NCBI RefSeq assembly: GCF_016937515.1
Contig: NZ_JAFHKM010000002.1
Coordinates: 2,041,001 to 2,105,000, forward strand
Direction of reading: 5' to 3'
DNA: 64,000 bases
Origin: Cohnella algarum
GTDB taxonomy: Bacteria; Bacillota; Bacilli; Paenibacillales; Paenibacillaceae
In this document: positions 5,811-18,307 of the stretch, one piece after another
Layout: each line of letters opens with the position of its first letter
Numbering within the stretch: position 1 is the first letter of the stretch
Notes under the pieces: model-generated
Told to the model about the DNA's origin: nothing
Database searches by the model: none
What the model saw: the letters and a program-made list of their open reading frames with translations, nothing else
Translations under genes and position numbers: made by a program

Positions 5811-7097
5811 TTAAGCCCGCTCGCCTTCGGGCAGCAGCTCCAGCTCGATAACCGTATCCCATTCGTCGGGCAGCTCCGCCCCCTTCAGCAGGATGAACGC
5901 TCCGGTGTCGGTGTCGGAGTAGTGGTCGGCCATCCACGGCACCGATACGCTCAGTTCGGAGCCGTCGCGGAGCAGGCGGGCTTGTTTGATTTTCCCTTTG
6001 AGCCCCTGGAAGTAGATCGGTCCGATGCCGCGATCGTAGACGTGCGCGTACAGCTTGTCGCCCTTCCGCGTATAACGGCCCCATTCCGGCTTCGGCAGCT
6101 CCGACGCGCCGCACCCGTAAATGCTGTCGCCGTTCCGCCGCAGCCATTCCCCGACCCCGGCCAGCGCGTCCAGCGATTCGCGCGGAATTTCGCCCTTCGC
6201 GTCCGGACCGACGTTGAGCAGCAGGTTGCCGTTTTTGCTGACGCATTCGACGAGCGCGCGGACGATGTGCATCGGCGGCTTGAACGCCCGGTCCTCCGCG
6301 TAATAGCCCCAATTTTCGTTCAGCGTGATGCACGCCTCCCACGGAAGCGGCCGGCCGTTCGCATCGACGATGCCGCCCGGCGGAATGATCTGCTCCGGCG
6401 AATAGAAGTCGCCGGCATACGATTCCGGCAGCTTCGCATTGATATTGCCGAGCCGGTTGTCGATGACGACGTGGGGCTGAAGCGACCGGATCATGCCGAC
6501 GAGCTCGGACGCCTTCCACTTTTCGCCGGTCATGTCGTCGTAGGAAAAATCAAACCACATGATGTCGATTTTGCCGTAATTCGTCAGCAGTTCCTTCACC
6601 TGGCCGTGCATGTACGCGACATAGCGGTCGAAATCGATCGGCTTGTCCCTGAACGCCTCATTGTCCCGCTCGGGATGGTAGCGGTCGCCGTAAGCCGGAT
6701 AATCGTCATGATGCCAATCGATCAGCGAATAATAAAAGCCGATGCCGAGTCCTTCCGCCCGGAACGCGTCGACGTATTCCCGCACCAGATCGCGGCCGGC
6801 CGGCGCGTTCGTCGCCTTGTACTCGGTCAGCCCGCTGTCGAACAGGCAGAAGCCGTCGTGGTGCTTCGTCGTCAGCACGGCGTACTTCAGCCCGGCCTCC
6901 CTGGCCGCCCGCGCCCAGGCTTTCGGATCGTAGCGGGACGCGTCGAATTCCGCGAAATAGCGCTCGTATTCCGCCTTGCTTATCCTTTCGTGACTGCGAA
7001 CCCATTCGCCTCGGGCGGGAATCGCATACAGCCCCCAATGGATAAACAGGCCGAACCGGTCATGCAAAAACCGCTTTGTTCTTTCTTCTCTCGTCAT
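5811..7097 (-). CDS. Alpha-L-fucosidase, glycoside hydrolase family 29
   Basis: 428 residues from the ATG at 7097, which has GGGAGG 11 bases upstream; a longer frame to 7166 lacks a ribosome site. GH29 hallmarks are the N-terminal FGLFIHWGLYA, LTTKHHDGFCLFDS, and the nucleophile region IDIMWFDFSYDD. These retaining enzymes remove terminal alpha-L-fucose from glycans. No signal peptide is visible, so it should act in the cytoplasm on imported fucosylated oligosaccharides. It is the last gene of a minus-strand cluster that begins with an AraC regulator and includes a lipoprotein and two permeases. Fucose itself is inferred from the family. Confidence 0.9.
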   Translation of the reverse strand: MTREERTKRFLHDRFGLFIHWGLYAIPARGEWVRSHERISKAEYERYFAEFDASRYDPKAWARAAREAGLKYAVLTTKHHDGFCLFDSGLTEYKATNAPAGRDLVREYVDAFRAEGLGIGFYYSLIDWHHDDYPAYGDRYHPERDNEAFRDKPIDFDRYVAYMHGQVKELLTNYGKIDIMWFDFSYDDMTGEKWKASELVGMIRSLQPHVVIDNRLGNINAKLPESYAGDFYSPEQIIPPGGIVDANGRPLPWEACITLNENWGYYAEDRAFKPPMHIVRALVECVSKNGNLLLNVGPDAKGEIPRESLDALAGVGEWLRRNGDSIYGCGASELPKPEWGRYTRKGDKLYAHVYDRGIGPIYFQGLKGKIKQARLLRDGSELSVSVPWMADHYSDTDTGAFILLKGAELPDEWDTVIELELLPEGERA

Positions 7098-10881: not shown

Positions 10882-11232
10882 TTAGAACCCGCCCGGGGCG
10901 CGGGGTTTTCGCATTTTTCGGTATTCGGTCGCGCTCAGTCCGTTGGCCCGCTTGAACGCCCGGCCGAACGTGTTGAGGGAGTAGTAGCCTACCCGGGCGG
11001 CTACTTCGTTCACGGGCATGTCGCTCTCCTCAAGCAGCCGCTTCGCGTGCTTCATGCGTTCGTTTTCCAGATAGTCCGAAAAGTTGACCCCGGTTTGTTC
11101 TTTGAAAAAGTAGGAAACGTACGCCTCGGAAATGCCGAACCTTTCCGCCAGCTTGCTCAAGCTTAGATCGGTTTGCATGTAATGATCGTCGAGATGCCGA
11201 ATCAGCTCTTCCTTCAATCGCTTGTTGTGGCT
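10882..11232 (-). pseudogene. AraC-family regulator, C-terminal DNA-binding fragment (gene split by IS110)
   Basis: About 116 residues carrying both helix-turn-helix motifs of an AraC domain (LSLSKLAERFGISEAYVSYFFK and VNEVAARVGYYSLNTFGRAFKRANG). The frame enters the insertion at the CT core 11231-11232 and meets a stop codon in the IS110 end. Joining it to the N-terminal fragment ending at 16265 through one copy of CT gives a continuous 2313-base frame (770 residues) reading RKKTSHNKRLKEEL across the junction. The fragment has a possible TTG start at 11217, but no evidence says it is expressed. Confidence 0.9.
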
Positions 11233-11239
11233 TTCGTAT

Positions 11240-11245
11240 TATTAG
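11240..11245 (+). promoter_or_regulatory. -10 half of the IS110 circle-junction promoter (left end)
   Basis: TATTAG at 11240-11245. When the element's ends are joined through the CT core, it lies exactly 17 bp after TTGACA of the right end (16249-16254). IS110-family circles are known to build a promoter across the junction that transcribes the bridge RNA and recombinase. Confidence 0.55.
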
Positions 11246-11272
11246 GTCAGCCAGAGATTTCTGGTTGGCCTA
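11243..11272 (+). ncRNA. 5' stem-loop of the IS110 bridge RNA, terminator-like; intron insertion target
   Basis: A 13-bp stem (11243-11255 with 11260-11272, two G-U pairs, GATT tetraloop) followed by TTTTTA. It sits just downstream of the junction -10, where the 5' hairpin of an IS110 bridge RNA is expected. A group II intron starts six bases after the stem. Some bacterial introns (class IIC) insert after terminator-type hairpins, which would explain the choice of site. Confidence 0.6.
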
Positions 11273-12814
11273 TTTTTAGTGTGCCACGCATGGCGATTAA
11301 CTAGGTGGTGAAAGTCCACTGTGGGGGTTTGTAGTTACCAACCACTAGCCAAGAGCAAGGGTGTCCACCGCGAGGTGGAATCCAAAGGAAGCTGGAGGCA
11401 AACTTCCGGCCCAAGGAACACGAACATCATCAGGCATAGGATACGGGATGAGTCTGCTAAACAAGACGAAGTCCAATTAACTACACGGACGTACCAATGT
11501 AAATGATGTGGGTATATGGAAGGAAAGTGAATCGTCTTACCGTGGGAGGTCTCATGGACGTGAGGAGATGCACTTCGAATCACGGTTGAAACAAGATTTA
11601 TCATGAGAAGTCAGCAGACGCCATAGTACCGCGAACAGTCGACGGTTCGAGGGAAGGGCTGAACCTTAGGAGGTGAAGTCAATGAAAGTTACCGAAACAG
11701 GAGCCAAGGGCAGCCAACTTCTAACGGAAGACTCTTTGCAAAAGAATAGTGCGGAACACGAAGGATATGCGGGAGTGCACAGTCCTGCGAGGATAACCGA
11801 AACCGACGACACCAACGCAACCGAGTCGAAGGACCGGTTGCTTGAGAAAATCGTTAGCAGGGACAACTTGAACGAAGCATTCAAGAGAGTCAAAGCGAAC
11901 AAGGGATCGCACGGAATCGACGGGATGGGAGTAGATGAACTTCTACAATATCTCAGAGACAACGGCGAGACCATCAAGCAACTGATCTTGGGCGGCAAGT
12001 ACCGCCCGAATCCCGTTCGAAGGGTAGAGATTCCCAAAGAGAACGGAAAGAAGAGAAACCTTGGCATTCCAACAGTGGTTGACCGAGTCATCCAGCAGGC
12101 AATCGCCCAAGTGCTTACGCCAATTTATGAGAGGCAGTTTTCAGACAACAGCTACGGATTCCGACCCAAACGGAGCGCACACCACGCGATGAAACGAAGC
12201 CAACAATACGTGCAAGAGGGATATCGTTACGTGGTGGATATGGACTTGGAGAAATACTTTGACACCGTCAACCAAAGCAAGCTCATCGAGGTGCTTTCAA
12301 GAACGATCAAAGACGGACGAGTGATCTCGCTCATCCATAAGTATCTCCGGGCGGGAGTCGTCGTGAAGCATAAGTTTGAGGACACGGAAATCGGCGTACC
12401 GCAGGGAGGGAACCTAAGTCCGATTCTCAGCAATATCATGCTGAATGAATTGGACAAGGAACTGGAAGCAAGAGGACATCGATTCGTGCGATACGCAGAC
12501 GATATGCTCATATTCTGCCGGAGCAGGAGGAGTGCGGAGCGTACCCTGACGAAAATTCTCCCTTACATCGAGAAGAAGTTGTTTCTCAAGGTAAACCGGG
12601 AGAAAACGATTGTGGACGATGCGACAAAAGTTAAATTTCTTGGCTTCTCATTCTACCAGAGCAAAGGGGAAACGCGGGTCAGAATCCATCCCAAATCCGT
12701 ATCCAAGATGAAAGCTAAAGTGAAAGAGCTAACGTCGAGAAGCAACGGAATGGGCAACACCGACCGGGCGCTGAAGCTTAGGCGTTACATCATGGGATGG
12801 GTAAATTATTTCAA

Positions 12815-14401
12815 CCTAAATTACGAAAGCCTATAGAATCAGGCTTTTGAAGACGCAGAACTTGGATTTCACAACCAATTATGGAGGCAGAATATGCAGT
12901 CAAAATGGAATGCGAGCAAAAATGCCGTTACTTTCCCCCTCCCCACATGAAGGGGCAACGGGATTTCCAAGACACAAATTGGGATTATCGTTTATTCCAA
13001 TAAAATACTTTTTCGCTCCATTCGTCGCCATGCCCACTGGTTTTGGAAAGACGTACTCAGTTTCAATGTCATTTGGCGGGCATGCTGGACAAACACACCT
13101 GCACAAACAAAAAACGTTCGCCGGAACCGCTGGATGGTGTAGGATCGGTGAATCGGCTCACAACAATGATGCTTGAATCGCTCAAAGAGATTATAGGCGA
13201 GCAGCTTTAAGAGCAGGTCGATTTCATTGGCGGCAAACGACTGCGTTGGAATGCGGTGGATGGCAAAGCCATTCTTGCCTTCCTTGATGTAGTTCTCCAT
13301 GCAGCAGCGCTGGTTGTAGAACCGCCACACATCGATGGCTTCCCATTCCTCCGTTGTGACCATGGCTTCGTATTGCCAAAGCAAATCCAGTTCCAACTGA
13401 GACTGATCCCCGTCCCAACGCGGCATTTTGCGGATGACAGCAACACGACGCATCTTCTTCCAACCGATCGCTTGGTAGGCCAGCACGATGCCTTCAATGA
13501 TCCAGTCCTCGTCCACAAAGCGTGTCCAATGCGCACAGGTTTTGACTTGGTCCTGGAGACGACTTGTCCATTTCAGCTTGCCGACGTAGCCGATCTGACG
13601 GGACTCCCAGAACGCGTAGAAGTCTTCTCCGCCAAAGCCTTTGTCAAACCGGGCATAGCGTACGTGGTGGGATTCCAACAACGCCAGCGTTTGCCGGGCA
13701 AACGAAAGGACGTCGGTCGAACTGCTCGTGTTGCCGGGACGCAGCGCGGCATTCACTAGCATTCGCGACTGCCCTTCGTACACGAGAAGGGGATGATAGC
13801 TCTTTCGGCCGCGCTTCTGACTGTTAAAACCGACTTCCGCTCCCTGCTGGTTGCCGTACACCGTCTCAACAGTCGAATCCAGATCGAGAATCAAGGAGTC
13901 GGGTAGCTGCGGTGCAATGATTTCGACATTCAGGTTTCGCAGGGCTGGCGCTAAATGGTCGTGGGCTTTGCCCAGACGAAGCAATTCCTTGTTTAACAAT
14001 GTGTGATGCGGCACCCGGCCGCCCAGCGCCTGGGCGATCAAGGCATCACCTTGTAGGGATTTGAAATGAAAGAGACGTTCGCAGCCCAAAATCCAGCCGA
14101 TGATGAGCATCTGCAGAATGCGATGCGTCGGAAAGATGGCATTCGCCGCTTTGGCTAGTCCAAGGCTCCGAAGGGCTTGATTCAAACCGATGTTTTCAAG
14201 AAATCCGAGGATCACCTTGCTTCCTGCAAAATTTGTTGCATTTCTCATAGAAAATGCCGTTTTCAATGACGCGATTTTTGTGGTAGACTTCACCTTAAGG
14301 GTGCTCCTCTCTTGGTTGGTGATGTTCTAGGCAAACACCATTCTACCAAAGATCTGGGCACTTTTTCATGTTTTTATGAGGTGGTACTTTCGTAATTCAG
14401 G
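12815..14401 (-). mobile_element. IS1380-family insertion sequence, 1587 bp, with 5-bp target duplication
   Basis: Ends are imperfect inverted repeats: CCTAAATTACGAAAG on the left and, on the opposite strand, CCTGAATTACGAAAG on the right (14 of 15 identical). TTCAA flanks the element on both sides (12810-12814 and 14402-14406). The single transposase gene reads on the minus strand. Length and ends suit the IS1380 family. Its plus-strand left end contributes the stop codon that truncates the reverse transcriptase. Confidence 0.93.
12992..14293 (-). CDS. IS1380-family transposase (DDE)
   Basis: 433 residues with a GTG start behind GAGAGGAG. DDE residues are probably the Asp of LILDLDSTVETVYG, the Asp of YARFDKGFGGEDFY and the Glu in CCMENYIKEGKNGF. 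The gene fills most of the IS and appears intact. Lower GC than the chromosome around it is consistent with transfer. It could still move the element, since both inverted repeats are present. Confidence 0.93.
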   Translation of the reverse strand: MKSTTKIASLKTAFSMRNATNFAGSKVILGFLENIGLNQALRSLGLAKAANAIFPTHRILQMLIIGWILGCERLFHFKSLQGDALIAQALGGRVPHHTLLNKELLRLGKAHDHLAPALRNLNVEIIAPQLPDSLILDLDSTVETVYGNQQGAEVGFNSQKRGRKSYHPLLVYEGQSRMLVNAALRPGNTSSSTDVLSFARQTLALLESHHVRYARFDKGFGGEDFYAFWESRQIGYVGKLKWTSRLQDQVKTCAHWTRFVDEDWIIEGIVLAYQAIGWKKMRRVAVIRKMPRWDGDQSQLELDLLWQYEAMVTTEEWEAIDVWRFYNQRCCMENYIKEGKNGFAIHRIPTQSFAANEIDLLLKLLAYNLFERFKHHCCEPIHRSYTIQRFRRTFFVCAGVFVQHARQMTLKLSTSFQNQWAWRRMERKSILLE

Positions 14402-14772
14402 TTCAAGCTTGCTGACATGAAACAACTACTCCAAACCACTGATAAATGGATGAGAAGGCGTATCCGAATGGTCTTCTGGAAGCAATGGAAACGAGTGAGG
14501 ACGAAACTCGAAAGGCTTATATCGCTCGGAATTCATGAACAGAAGGCGTGGGAATACGCAAACACAAGAAAGGGCTATTGGAGAATCTCCAATAGCCCAA
14601 TCCTCTCGAAGTCCCTCGGTAACAATAGGCTGAAGAACCTCGGATTCCTTTTCTTTTCTGATTATTATCGACAAGTTACTGCGCATTCCTAATGGAACCG
14701 CCGTATACCGAACGGTACGTACGGTGGTGTGGGAGGTCGGCTGCCCAATTAATGGGTAGCCTCCTACCCGAT

Positions 14773-14935
14773 TTGGGATCTTACGATGGTGGTAGCCGGG
14801 AGAACGAGGGTGGCTTAGGGGCTAGGACCCCGTCAAAAAAACTGTTCTCTCACTACCTTCCAACGACCATGTTTGAGCTGGTAGGGGCAATGACCTCGCA
14901 TCACAAGCGAAGCTATGGGTTTGGAAGCCATGTGG
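14773..14935 (+). ncRNA. IS110 bridge RNA body: target-binding and donor-binding loops
   Basis: Between the intron's 3' end and the recombinase gene two stem-internal loop-hairpin modules can be drawn. Module 1: GGTAG/CTACC and GAGAAC/GTTCTC stems close an internal loop (14806-14817 and 14832-14843) capped by GGGG-CTAGGA-CCCC. Its left side contains GTGGCT (14810-14815), identical to the host flank ending in the CT core. Its right side contains CAAAAAAAC (14834-14842), complementary to GTTTTTTTG of the other flank (16266-16274). Module 2: CTTCCAA/TTGGAAG and CCAT/ATGG close a loop capped by GGGG/CCTC; its sides carry GAGCT and GAAGCT, which partly match the element's own ends around CT. Folding was done by eye. 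Confidence 0.7.
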
Positions 14936-14967
14936 GAATGCCGGTGAACGAATTGAAGGAGGGTTTT

Positions 14968-16148
14968 ATGCAACCAGTTGTAGGCGTGGATGTAGCGAAA
15001 GGTTTTAGCGTGATACAGCCATTCTTAAGACGGAACGAGCCATACGGAAGGATGGAGAACCTTCAGCATGGGGAGAATGGTTTTGCGCGATTAGGGGAAT
15101 TGTTAGAGCAACTAAAGCGAGTGAGCGGCGAGGACCCCGTTGTTGTCCTCGAAGCGACGGGCCACTACCATCGGGGGTTAGTGGGATATTTAAAAGTTAA
15201 CGGATGGATCCACTACATCGTCAACCCCTCCGAGCCAAACGAGCAAAGGGAACGCAGCTCCGTAAGGTGAAAACGGATGCGGCCGATGCTTGGCATCTGG
15301 CTGAGCTGTATTACAAGGGAGATGTAGTTCCACACCGCGAATGGCAAGAATCCTATACGGAGCTTCAGCACCTGACTAGACAGCATGAGTTTGTAACCGG
15401 CATGTATGTACAGGCAAAATTGAATAGCAGGGCATTAATGGAGCAAGTATTTCCGGATTACATTGGAATATTCCACAATCTTTTTTCGAAAACGTCATTG
15501 AAGGTGCTGAAGCGATGCTTAATGAACCAGACAACAGATCTAGGGGAATTTATTCGAGAATGCACAGGTAAATCCCATTCAAAAGTGTGGATAGAAGAGA
15601 AGGTAACGAAGCTTAGTGAAATTCTTCATAACTGGGCTAGGCAAGTTAAGAGTCCATCTCAGACAATTGCACTGAACAGCATGGTTTCGTTGCTGCTGGA
15701 GTTTGACGAGCAATTAACCCAGTTGGAAAAGCAAATGAATGAACTGGCCGAAGAACTGCCGGAGATACAATTGATTAAGAGCATACCTGGCATAGGGGAC
15801 AAACTTGCTGCACAGATTGCAGCTGAACTCGGGGATGCCAGCCAATTCGAAGATGCCAAGCAGGCTGTGGCTTTTGCAGGACTAGATCCGGGAATCTACA
15901 GTTCGGGGAAATTTACAGCCACGTCTAACCGAATTACCAAAAGGGGCTCCAAAAGGCTAAGGCGAGCGTTGTATCTAGCCGTACAGTGCGGAATTCGAAG
16001 AGGTGCTAACCGAAGGATAACCGATTACTACAAAAAGAAAAGGATAGAGGGCAAGCCCTACAAGGTGGTCGTGATCGCTTGCGCCAACAAGCTTCTCCAT
16101 CACGTGTACGCCATCCTTCGTAAAAGCGAGCCCTACCACGAGAACTAA
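14968..16148 (+). pseudogene. IS110-family DEDD recombinase (transposase) with a -1 frameshift
   Basis: ATG at 14968 with GAAGGAGG upstream. The N-terminal frame gives the first acidic residues of the RuvC-like site (PVVGVDVAKGFSV, VVLEATGHYH) and WIHYIVNP, then goes out of frame. The other frame continues PLRAKRAKGTQLRKVKTDAADAWHLAEL, with the last two Asp, through the C-terminal domain (SIPGIGDKLAAQIAAELGD, IYSSGKFTATSNRITKRGSKRLRRAL) that supplies the nucleophilic serine in this family. One base missing from the C run at about 15226-15230 explains the break. All catalytic motifs are otherwise present, so decay looks recent; a sequencing error in the run is possible. Confidence 0.9.
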
Positions 16149-16248
16149 ATGCCAAACTTAACCATAATCCTTCTCGCCAAAGAAGGTTATTTGTGCTGCC
16201 TAAAAACGAGTATACCAAAACAATTTCAATTGCACCAAACCCAAATAC

Positions 16249-16254
16249 TTGACA
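16249..16254 (+). promoter_or_regulatory. -35 half of the IS110 circle-junction promoter (right end)
   Basis: Perfect TTGACA located 8 bases before the right CT core. In a circular intermediate it faces TATTAG of the left end at 17-bp spacing. In the integrated copy it faces into the AraC fragment antisense and has no matching -10. Confidence 0.55.
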
Positions 16255-16258
16255 AGCA

Positions 16259-18226
16259 TTAGCTGGTTTTTTTGCGATCGTTCATGTTGCGGCTCATCCG
16301 CAGAAACGCGTCCGCCAGTTCCTTGAACGCGTCTTTTGCCAAACGTCCGGATTCCGCGGCCGCAAGCGCCCTGTCCAGCTCCTCGGAGCCGAGCCGGTCG
16401 TCCGGCTGCGTCTGCTCGATGCATTTGAGCAGCGTGCCGCTCATTTCGCCGAGCAAAATGCGGCCGACGCCCGCGGGCATGCCGCTTCCCTCCAGGTTGT
16501 TTTTCCGGATCAGCTCGAGCAGCGCCACGGTTTCTTCGACATCGCCCGATTTGACCAGATTGATCAGCCGCTGCTCGACGTCCGGCGGATAGTAATACGC
16601 GGGCAGGGGAAGGGCGTCGTCGTCGCGGCAGACGACCGGACGCGTTTCCGTCCAGTTTGTCCGCTGCAGGATCAGCCGAGCCTCCTCGTAAGAACGGCTG
16701 ATTTCCGTCAATCGGGAATAGCAGCCTCCGACGGCCGCGTATGCGGCGATGTTGAGCGTTCCGGCGAGCCGGGCGCGCAGTTCCTTGAGCTTGTTCAGGC
16801 ACTCGGAAAGAAAGGCGGCGGACGTCGGCGCGTCGCCGTTAAGCACTAGGGCGATCTGGTTTTCGCCCAGATCGTGCGCGGACATCGCGGCCCCGTACGC
16901 TTGGTCGACGACGTCGCGAACGGCCATTTTGCGAATTTCGAGCTCGGTCAGCATTTCCTCGTTGTACGTGCCGTCATAGCCGGAGATCGCGAGCACGCCG
17001 ACGGCGAAATAGTCCCCTTCCCACTGCAGCCTCGAATGCTCCATGGCCAGGGCGATATCTTTGTCGGAAGCGAACTGCCCCCGCAGCAGCCGCTCGTAAA
17101 AGCCGCTGCGGATCAGCGGCGCCTGCTGCTCCAGCTTCTCCTCCAGGGAGTTGTTGCGGTAGACGAGACCGGCGACCGAGGTTCGGACGTCATCCCAGGT
17201 GTTCCGGGGGTTCCCGTCCGTTCCGTTGGCGTGCTGCGCCGGCAGCGCCCGAAGCAGCAGCCAGAGCGGCCGGCTGTTGCGATAAGCGAACAGCGCCGCG
17301 GCGATCAGGCCGAGGGCGACGCCCAGCGCGATAATCGTCAGAATGAGCTGTTCGAAATAGCGCACCTTGTGCAGCACGGCCGATTCCGGCTGGGCCGATA
17401 CGTACGTCCACCCGTTAATTTGCGATGTGGTGCGGGTGACAAGCATGCGGCGGCCGTCGATCGCGGCGGAAGAGAAACCGTCGGGCAAATCGGCCGCCCA
17501 CGCGGTAGAGGCGAAGTCCCCCGTGCCGCTGATCGCTTGCCCCCGATCGTCGGTAATGAACGCGAACCCTCCGGAATCCGGCACCAGCTTGCGAAGCATG
17601 CTCTGGATCTGGGAGTTGTCGATGAGCATCAGCACGAGGGCGACGCGGTCCTTCGTGCCGAACGATTGCATATAGGAAACGACCGACTGCCGCTTGCCGT
17701 CGTAAACGGCGGACTGGCCGGGAATGAACGTCCGATACCGGTACCGGTCGGACAGCTCGCTTTTCCACCGTTCGAAGCTGAAGCCGTCGTATTGGAATTT
17801 CAAATCGTAAAACTGCCGCAGCGTATACACTTTGTGGGGGGATACGGCGAGGTCCTTGTCGGGGTAAACGACGTAATAGTCGAGAATGAAATGGTTGAAC
17901 AGCGGATAATCGAACAAGCCCTTCTGCAGCTCGAGAATGCGCGCCGGATTCGTTCCGGCGAACGGATCGCCGACGTAGGGGAACGACCTTGCTTTCGTGC
18001 TCCCGGCCACTTGCTCGGCGATCGTTTCGATTTCCTCGAAACGCCGGTCCAGGGTTTCCTTGGTTTGAGCCATGATGGCGTAAGCGGTTTCATTTGTTTG
18101 ATTTTCAACGAGCGCCGCCGTGCGCCCGTAAGCGTACAGCCCGACGGCCACGAAGCCGGCCAGCAGGACCGCGTAGGGTACGAAAAAATGCGCCAACACT
18201 TTCACTTTTCGGTTTACTTTGGACAT
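16259..18226 (-). pseudogene. AraC-family regulator, N-terminal sensor fragment (gene split by IS110)
   Basis: 655 residues from the ATG at 18226 (GGGAGAG upstream). A first membrane segment (VPYAVLLAGFVAVGLYAYG, residues about 14-32) and a second (LILTIIALGVALGLIAAALF, about 300-320) bracket an extracellular dCache-like domain; a cytoplasmic linker domain follows. The frame ends RKKTS at the IS110 right end, just before the DNA-binding domain should begin. Precise removal of the element restores a 770-residue regulator of the YesS/LplR-like type usual beside lplABC importers. The fragment cannot bind DNA, so regulation of the fucosidase-importer cluster is probably lost or altered. Confidence 0.9.
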
Positions 18227-18278
18227 AAGGAGATCTCTCCCGGGCTCGATGTCGATACGGCCGTGACCGATAAGGTTC

Positions 18279-18307
18279 AGTGTAAGGAAAAACGGCGGCC
18301 TTGACAA
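18279..18307 (-). promoter_or_regulatory. Sigma-A-type promoter of the AraC regulator gene
   Basis: Minus-strand TTGTCA and TACACT are 17 bp apart, about 50 bp upstream of the regulator's ATG. Confidence 0.65.

Follow-up and report, generated by a model that had tools for sequence, protein, structure and literature searches.

Within the 64-kb stretch of Cohnella algarum DNA analysed here (the window), several mobile elements lie nested in one another. A host gene for an AraC-type regulator is interrupted by an IS110 element, the bridge-RNA gene of that element is split by a group II intron, and the open reading frame (ORF) of the intron, a match to the maturase model TIGR04416, is itself cut by an IS1380-family element (Table 1). 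As a whole, the locus is very probably best explained as a decayed IS110-group element with a bridge RNA encoded in its left end. This anatomy, the position of the intron, the empty site and the matches between guides and flanks are all read from sequence.

Table 1. Features of the nested locus, in window coordinates
Feature	Position	Strand	Basis or remark
Host AraC-type regulator gene, 3' part (HTH), interrupted	10882..11217	-	
Left target flank, GTGGC + TTT (one copy of T-rich core)	11227..11234	+	Empty-site reading
Decayed IS110 element	11235-16266		
IS110 left end, exon 1: CGTATTATTAGG	11235..11278	+	Conserved in relatives
-10-like TATTAT in left end	11237-11242		
IS110 bridge-RNA gene	11243-11278 + 14773-14946		Split by group II intron
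Terminator-like hairpin, then T-run	11243-11272 (hairpin)		Probable bridge RNA 5' stem-loop
Group II intron (GTGTG...CCCGAT) inside bridge-RNA gene	11279..14772	+	Rfam group-II-D1D4-3, D1D4-1; boundaries defined by near-identical copies elsewhere in the genome
Intron reverse transcriptase/maturase ORF, 5' part	11673..12836	+	Cut by IS1380; rest at 14417-14692
IS1380-family transposase	12992..14293	-	Element inserted in intron ORF
IS110 bridge RNA, exon 2: target-binding and donor-binding modules	14773..14946	+	Model R1 match 14790-14946
Left target guide GGGTGGCTT	14808..14816	+	GTGGCTT = left flank
Right target guide TCAAAAAAA	14833..14841	+	Pairs with TTTTTTTG at 16267-16274; U14833 unpaired
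Left donor guide AGCTGGT	14876..14882	+	Equals right end AGCTGG + T; direct reading
Right donor guide AAGCGAAGC	14905..14913	+	Pairs with junction GTTTCGTAT, one mismatch, two G-U; direct reading
IS110 recombinase gene	14968..16148	+	ORFs; PF01548 + PF02371; NF033542 for second frame
IS110 right end, TTGACA-N12 closing with AGCTGG	16249..16266	+	
Right target flank TTTTTTTG, including second core copy	16267..16274	+	
Host AraC-type regulator gene, 5' part	16267..18307	-	GGDEF-like PF17853; dCache below its own cut-off

The recombinase is encoded in two frames, with the break somewhere about 15235-15250. Membership in the IS110 family follows from the DEDD (PF01548) and Transposase_20 (PF02371) domains, which score above their curated cut-offs and are split over the two frames. 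The second frame also matches NF033542 (192 bits), and the open frame of a relative, L013, matches the PDB entries for the IS621 and ISCro4 recombinases. Because the recombinase frame is broken and the intron ORF has been cut by IS1380, the window copy is probably dead or rescuable only in trans. A DNA search of the 6.2-Mb genome with the recombinase side of the element found one copy, and the genome contains three further left ends of the family, one of them solo, one without a target loop and one truncated in the donor loop.

Definition of the element ends drew on 13 loci retrieved by protein similarity. TTCGTATTAT is present at the left in 11 of these relatives and TTAGCTGG at the right in 11, with variable flank beyond each end, and two pairs of copies from the same genome (L003/L012 and L005/L013) part company at these very ends. 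The host flanks, joined with seven T, read NDRKKSHNKRLKEEL. All six of the closest uninterrupted homologs of the host gene (59-63% identical) have RKKSHN. The original prediction had set the boundary at CT/GG and counted GG as target, which predicts RKKTSHN; the extra codon is absent from all six homologs, GG is therefore element-derived, and the exact right boundary proposed at first was wrong. G16265-G16266 are, moreover, common to the right ends of the relatives. A CT core of the IS621 type had likewise been proposed and must be rejected, since the empty site and the relatives put the crossover in the T-run; the core is best described as T-rich. Together, the two junctions contain three additional T, from which a circle junction AGCTGG-TTT-CGTATTAT follows. 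The insertion site in the host homologs reads CTTTTCTT or similar, which makes the seven-T target peculiar to the window strain. In relatives, 33 of the 34 located right ends have TTGACA at a distance of 12 or 13 nt from the terminus (exactly 12 in 11), and in the window the joined ends would give TTGACA-17-TATTAT.

A covariance model of the bridge RNA (R1) was built from 29 relatives, the window being excluded (31 diverse sequences were picked from 62 RNAs, and L128 and L136 omitted). R1 recognizes the window RNA with 138 bits (E 2e-32), finds no second match in the window up to E 10, and covers in its first module the target loop that had been predicted there. The match lies upstream of the recombinase gene, that is, in the left end, as in the IS110 group and not the IS1111 group. 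Across the 29 relatives, 97.3% of stem cells are paired versus 93.7% after shuffling, and 6 stem pairs show two-sided change versus 2.2 (0/500 shuffles reach either value); stem covariation also exceeds that of slid controls, although the structure tested was drawn from the same alignment, which favours a positive result. Folded alone, the window RNA is of unremarkable stability (z -0.90), so that the support for it comes from the model and the covariation, not from lone folding. The outer stem of the donor module is weakly supported, and RNAalifold pairs part of the donor loop differently.

The central claim of the original prediction, an IS110 bridge RNA whose target loop matches the very site at which the element sits, is supported by R1 and by the family tests described below. 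Direct reading confirms that GTGGCT at 14810-14815 is identical to 11227-11232, and the proposed pairing of the seven-A run with the seven-T run holds (16267-16273), C14834-G16274 adding a further pair. The segment CAAAAAAAC (14834-14842) had been taken as the complement of 16266-16274. Its letters are indeed complementary, but C14842-G16266 is not a pairing with the original target, and neither are the two G-U pairs thought to extend the match, G16265-G16266 being the right end of the element; C14842 looks mostly structural. For the second module, AGCTGG-TTT-CGTATT is a better partner of AGCTGGT and AAGCGAAGC than the AGCTTT first suggested. The donor guide letters thus fit the element's own joined ends, but they are conserved across relatives, which leaves donor pairing without covariation support.

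When the element is removed from the 64 kb, the insertion point ties for the best guide score, 15/18, which 3 positions reach among the 117,882 scored on both strands; the result is the same with seven or eight T at the join. Could chance and T-run bias have produced the match between loop and flank? An A-run opposite a T-run is of low complexity, the left match amounts to GTGGC plus T, and the window's left guide is matched equally well by 2/73 other flanks. We nevertheless regard such an origin as highly improbable, because just 3 of all positions scored, the site included, reach this value and because the scores across the family exceed those of shuffled flanks that keep the T-run bias.

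For these family-wide scores, 84 rows were parsed from 146 left-end places and the window was entered by hand. The 62 unparsed places comprise contig ends, solo left ends and pattern failures (for example L009, L056, L058, L069, L073, L086 and L104); L113 and L128 were mis-parsed and dropped from the guide set. One scan behind the sample covered at least 118 stretches. Left guides match their own flanks at a mean of 7.39 of 9 positions (74 unique pairs, window included). Counted once per guide (n=40), the mean is 7.47 versus 4.87 for shuffled pairs, with a maximum of 5.83 in 3000 shuffles, and right guides (n=29) reach 6.48 of 8 versus 4.69 (0/5000 shuffles); T-runs raise the matches on both sides, a bias that the shuffled controls share. 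The same scoring rules were applied to 40 hand-chosen held-out regions, 20 of which were unparsed and 6 of the 20 parsed previously seen. Here the left guides (n=14) score 7.71 versus 5.72 (0/5000 shuffles) and the right guides (n=9) 6.56 versus 5.61 (6/5000), the latter being the weakest result, with one guide at 2 of 8; a number of the held-out guides had already occurred in the first set. Poor fits, with at most 5 of 9 matches, occur in 11/74 left guides, and only 36/74 beat 95% of foreign flanks, partly since many guides are alike. Loops track their own flanks well above shuffled pairs, in the held-out set as well. The search turned up no second copy whose loops are identical to those of the window. 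Other elements that share their loops mostly share a flank motif too, as the original prediction would have it, the exceptions being L198/L145 (GGCGAAT) and L140, in which the same loops accompany odd flanks.

For a comparison of targets, the elements were grouped by a single left-end letter, position 11, into those with C or T (as in the window) and those with A or G. The left flank ends in a hairpin of -8 kcal/mol or lower in 37/51 C/T elements (window and solo left ends included), versus 15/48 upstream controls (Fisher 5e-5) and 8/90 A/G elements (Fisher 6e-15). Held-out flanks are hairpin-ended in 19/28 cases, against a mean fraction of 0.21 in mononucleotide shuffles. Within the GC-rich C subset, 11/13 flanks pass the threshold, but so do 6/13 controls. 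The window's own flank, at -6.1 kcal/mol, fails it. The nearest upstream ORF of C/T elements is co-directional in 26/47, opposite in 9 and absent in 12, at a median of 52 nt before the element; the corresponding figures for 86 A/G elements are 20, 27 and 39. The idea that A/G elements generally choose palindromic targets found no support (own -5.8 kcal/mol versus a shuffled mean of -5.0 and minimum of -6.7; n=16). Two A/G elements, L008 and L084, have near-perfect palindromic targets, for example CTTCAACTAAC...GTTAGTTGAAG.

The hairpin-ended flanks of the C/T elements, in the first and held-out sets alike, would also be expected from a recombinase that recognized terminator hairpins by itself, a habit likewise ascribed to group IIC introns, with the resemblance of the loop letters to guides being incidental. 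This seems very unlikely to us, since the loop letters vary between subgroups and follow the flank, the A/G elements combine other loops with other flanks, and the window site is coding and has a weak end-hairpin, yet its guides match. Guide-directed targeting of terminators remains our preferred reading. IS110, among other families, has been described as over-represented between convergent gene ends in the portion of PMC9208149 available. Aiming of IS110 at intrinsic terminators is unreported in the accessible portions of the open PMC literature searched (including PMC1525189, PMC11187229, PMC9208149 and PMC8919778); the terminator aim thus appears to be new, while the IS110 bridge-RNA mechanism is already known.

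Many left ends occur without the rest of an element. Of 177 unique left-end places, 75 have a full bridge RNA and 102 do not; among the latter, 21 run into a contig end and 3 into N, and the test overlooked a small number of full elements. No further similarity follows in 52 of the remaining 78, a few of them representing the same site in two genomes. These solo left ends stop at 40-59 nt, just past the hairpin T-run, in 29 cases, earlier in 9 and from 60 nt onwards in 14. The one in the window genome has a host hairpin on one side and, on the other, the end of a ligA-like gene (named from its last residues); several relatives have a hairpin at the end of that gene. Solo left ends can be read as elements in which the remainder was lost between two T-runs and the hairpin was kept as a terminator, a pattern that either selection or biased deletion could produce.

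Several individual left ends deserve description. Solo copies of about 45 nt include several at terminator-like sites (G000:C2:927179 (L179), L202, L205, L218, L219, L124/L232, L233 and others). In L033 and L090, the left-end hairpin abuts what appears to be the right target flank (TTTAGTT), which would fit a loss of the intervening part of the element between T-runs. L123 contains, at about 6613-6665, two facing left ends that form a palindrome of ~54 nt, TTCGTATTATAAGG...CCTTATAATACGAA. The left-end hairpin loop of L042, L101, L109, L110 and L072 apparently holds another element, with ends like TGTACCC / GGGTAC.

The left-end hairpin also bears on the position of the intron. At least 4 T occur within 9 nt after this hairpin in 73/90 unique left ends (mean -15.3 kcal/mol), and the intron begins, at 11279, directly after its T-rich tail. 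The genome contains 12 intron matches, five of which have no usable 5' end (L168, L172-L175; the reading of L175 is doubtful). The other seven are copies of the window's intron and of its 70%-identical relative, and all 7/7, window included, follow a hairpin with a T-rich tail ending in TTTTA (-11.2 to -27.9 kcal/mol; host hairpins in the six non-window copies), the insertion habit of group IIC introns. A T follows the intron in 5/5 copies read. The ORF is uninterrupted in two copies, each 1,902 nt long. Another, L178 (G000:C2:1573000-1577500), is 3,494 nt long like that of the window, with its ORF broken at another place; by reading, the end of its insert resembles the window's IS1380 element, which suggests recent movement. 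A search of 394 genomes for an intron within a left end gave 2 matches, the window and, in G001, an intron-start fragment of ~78 nt behind a left-end-like hairpin. Rfam was also run on 37 loci, of which 34 were left ends lacking a bridge RNA; group II matches appeared in L014, L120 and L123, those of L120 and L123 lying kilobases from the left end. The L014 match is in the right flank, where no more than about 10 nt separate the start of the intron from the IS110 right end; both kinds of element thus appear to have used one host terminator. No report of a group II intron in a bridge-RNA gene was found in the accessible portions of the open PMC literature searched, and the intron-split guide gene appears to be new.

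With regard to present activity only, we lean towards the locus being a plain relic, in which bridge-RNA function was lost with the arrival of the intron and splicing does not occur. The recombinase frame is broken, the intron ORF is cut by IS1380, and the arrangement was met once in the 394 genomes, besides the G001 fragment. Against this stand the letters at the splice sites, which are as in other copies, the two copies with uninterrupted ORF, which could act in trans, and the two exons, which together equal the uninterrupted left end of L121 in length (by reading).

From this anatomy we infer transcription, recombination, termination and splicing along the following lines. The bridge RNA encoded in the left end would carry a terminator-like stem-loop at its 5' end, followed by the target loop and then the donor loop. 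The left guide (stem-arm letters, then Ts) and the right guide (an A-run and a few letters) would pair with both strands of a T-run target, and the donor loop with the joined ends, across which a promoter would also form. Guides in such elements would mostly be directed at intrinsic terminators, specifically at the 3' arm and the T-run; in the window strain the guide may instead have met a look-alike, GTGGC-TTTTTTT-G, within the regulator gene. Since the element brings its own hairpin and T-run, insertion into a terminator should leave termination largely intact. The same hairpin is the kind of site used by group IIC introns, and an intron of this sort lies just behind it and splits the bridge-RNA gene. 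We give even chances to the broader proposal that a set of Bacillales IS110 elements is specialized on intrinsic terminators and carries a spare terminator in its left end, making insertion nearly harmless; that the hairpin persists after loss of the element, serving as a solo left-end terminator; that it turns the bridge-RNA gene into a landing pad for group IIC introns; and that the guide RNA would, in this case, need splicing. These elements offer bridge RNAs that occur naturally, share a T-rich core, differ in their guides and can be tested statistically; they could help to establish the rules of target choice and to select sites behind genes where insertion costs little. They also suggest how two unrelated RNA-based mobile elements converge on one niche and nest in each other.

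Among known RNA-guided systems, IS621 has, according to the parts of PMC11208160 available, a recombinase of the same DEDD/Ser family, a long left end whose RNA has a 5' stem-loop followed by two loops, guides that match the two strands of the target, a donor loop matching the joined ends and a promoter across the junction. It differs in its CT core, as opposed to the T-rich core described here (engineered AT, GT and TT cores have been reported for IS621 in the same source), and in its REP targets, many members of the window's set being inserted at terminator-like hairpins instead; the RNA gene in the window, furthermore, is interrupted by a group II intron. Neither "terminator" nor "intron" appears as a word in the main text of PMC11208160. 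The seekRNA elements of the IS1111/IS110 type (ISEc11, ISEc21, ISKpn4 and ISPa11) share RNA-guided target choice, and some of their targets are potentially folded (attC, REP), as stated in the available part of PMC11187229, where terminator occurs 3 times, always in connection with expression constructs. The IS1111 group differs in keeping its RNA in the right end (PMC11208160, in part). Group IIC (bacterial C) introns, as described in the part of PMC8919778 available, insert immediately after Rho-independent terminators, as does the intron described here, assigned to this class by its insertion habit and Rfam; the difference is that here an IS110 left end supplies the hairpin.
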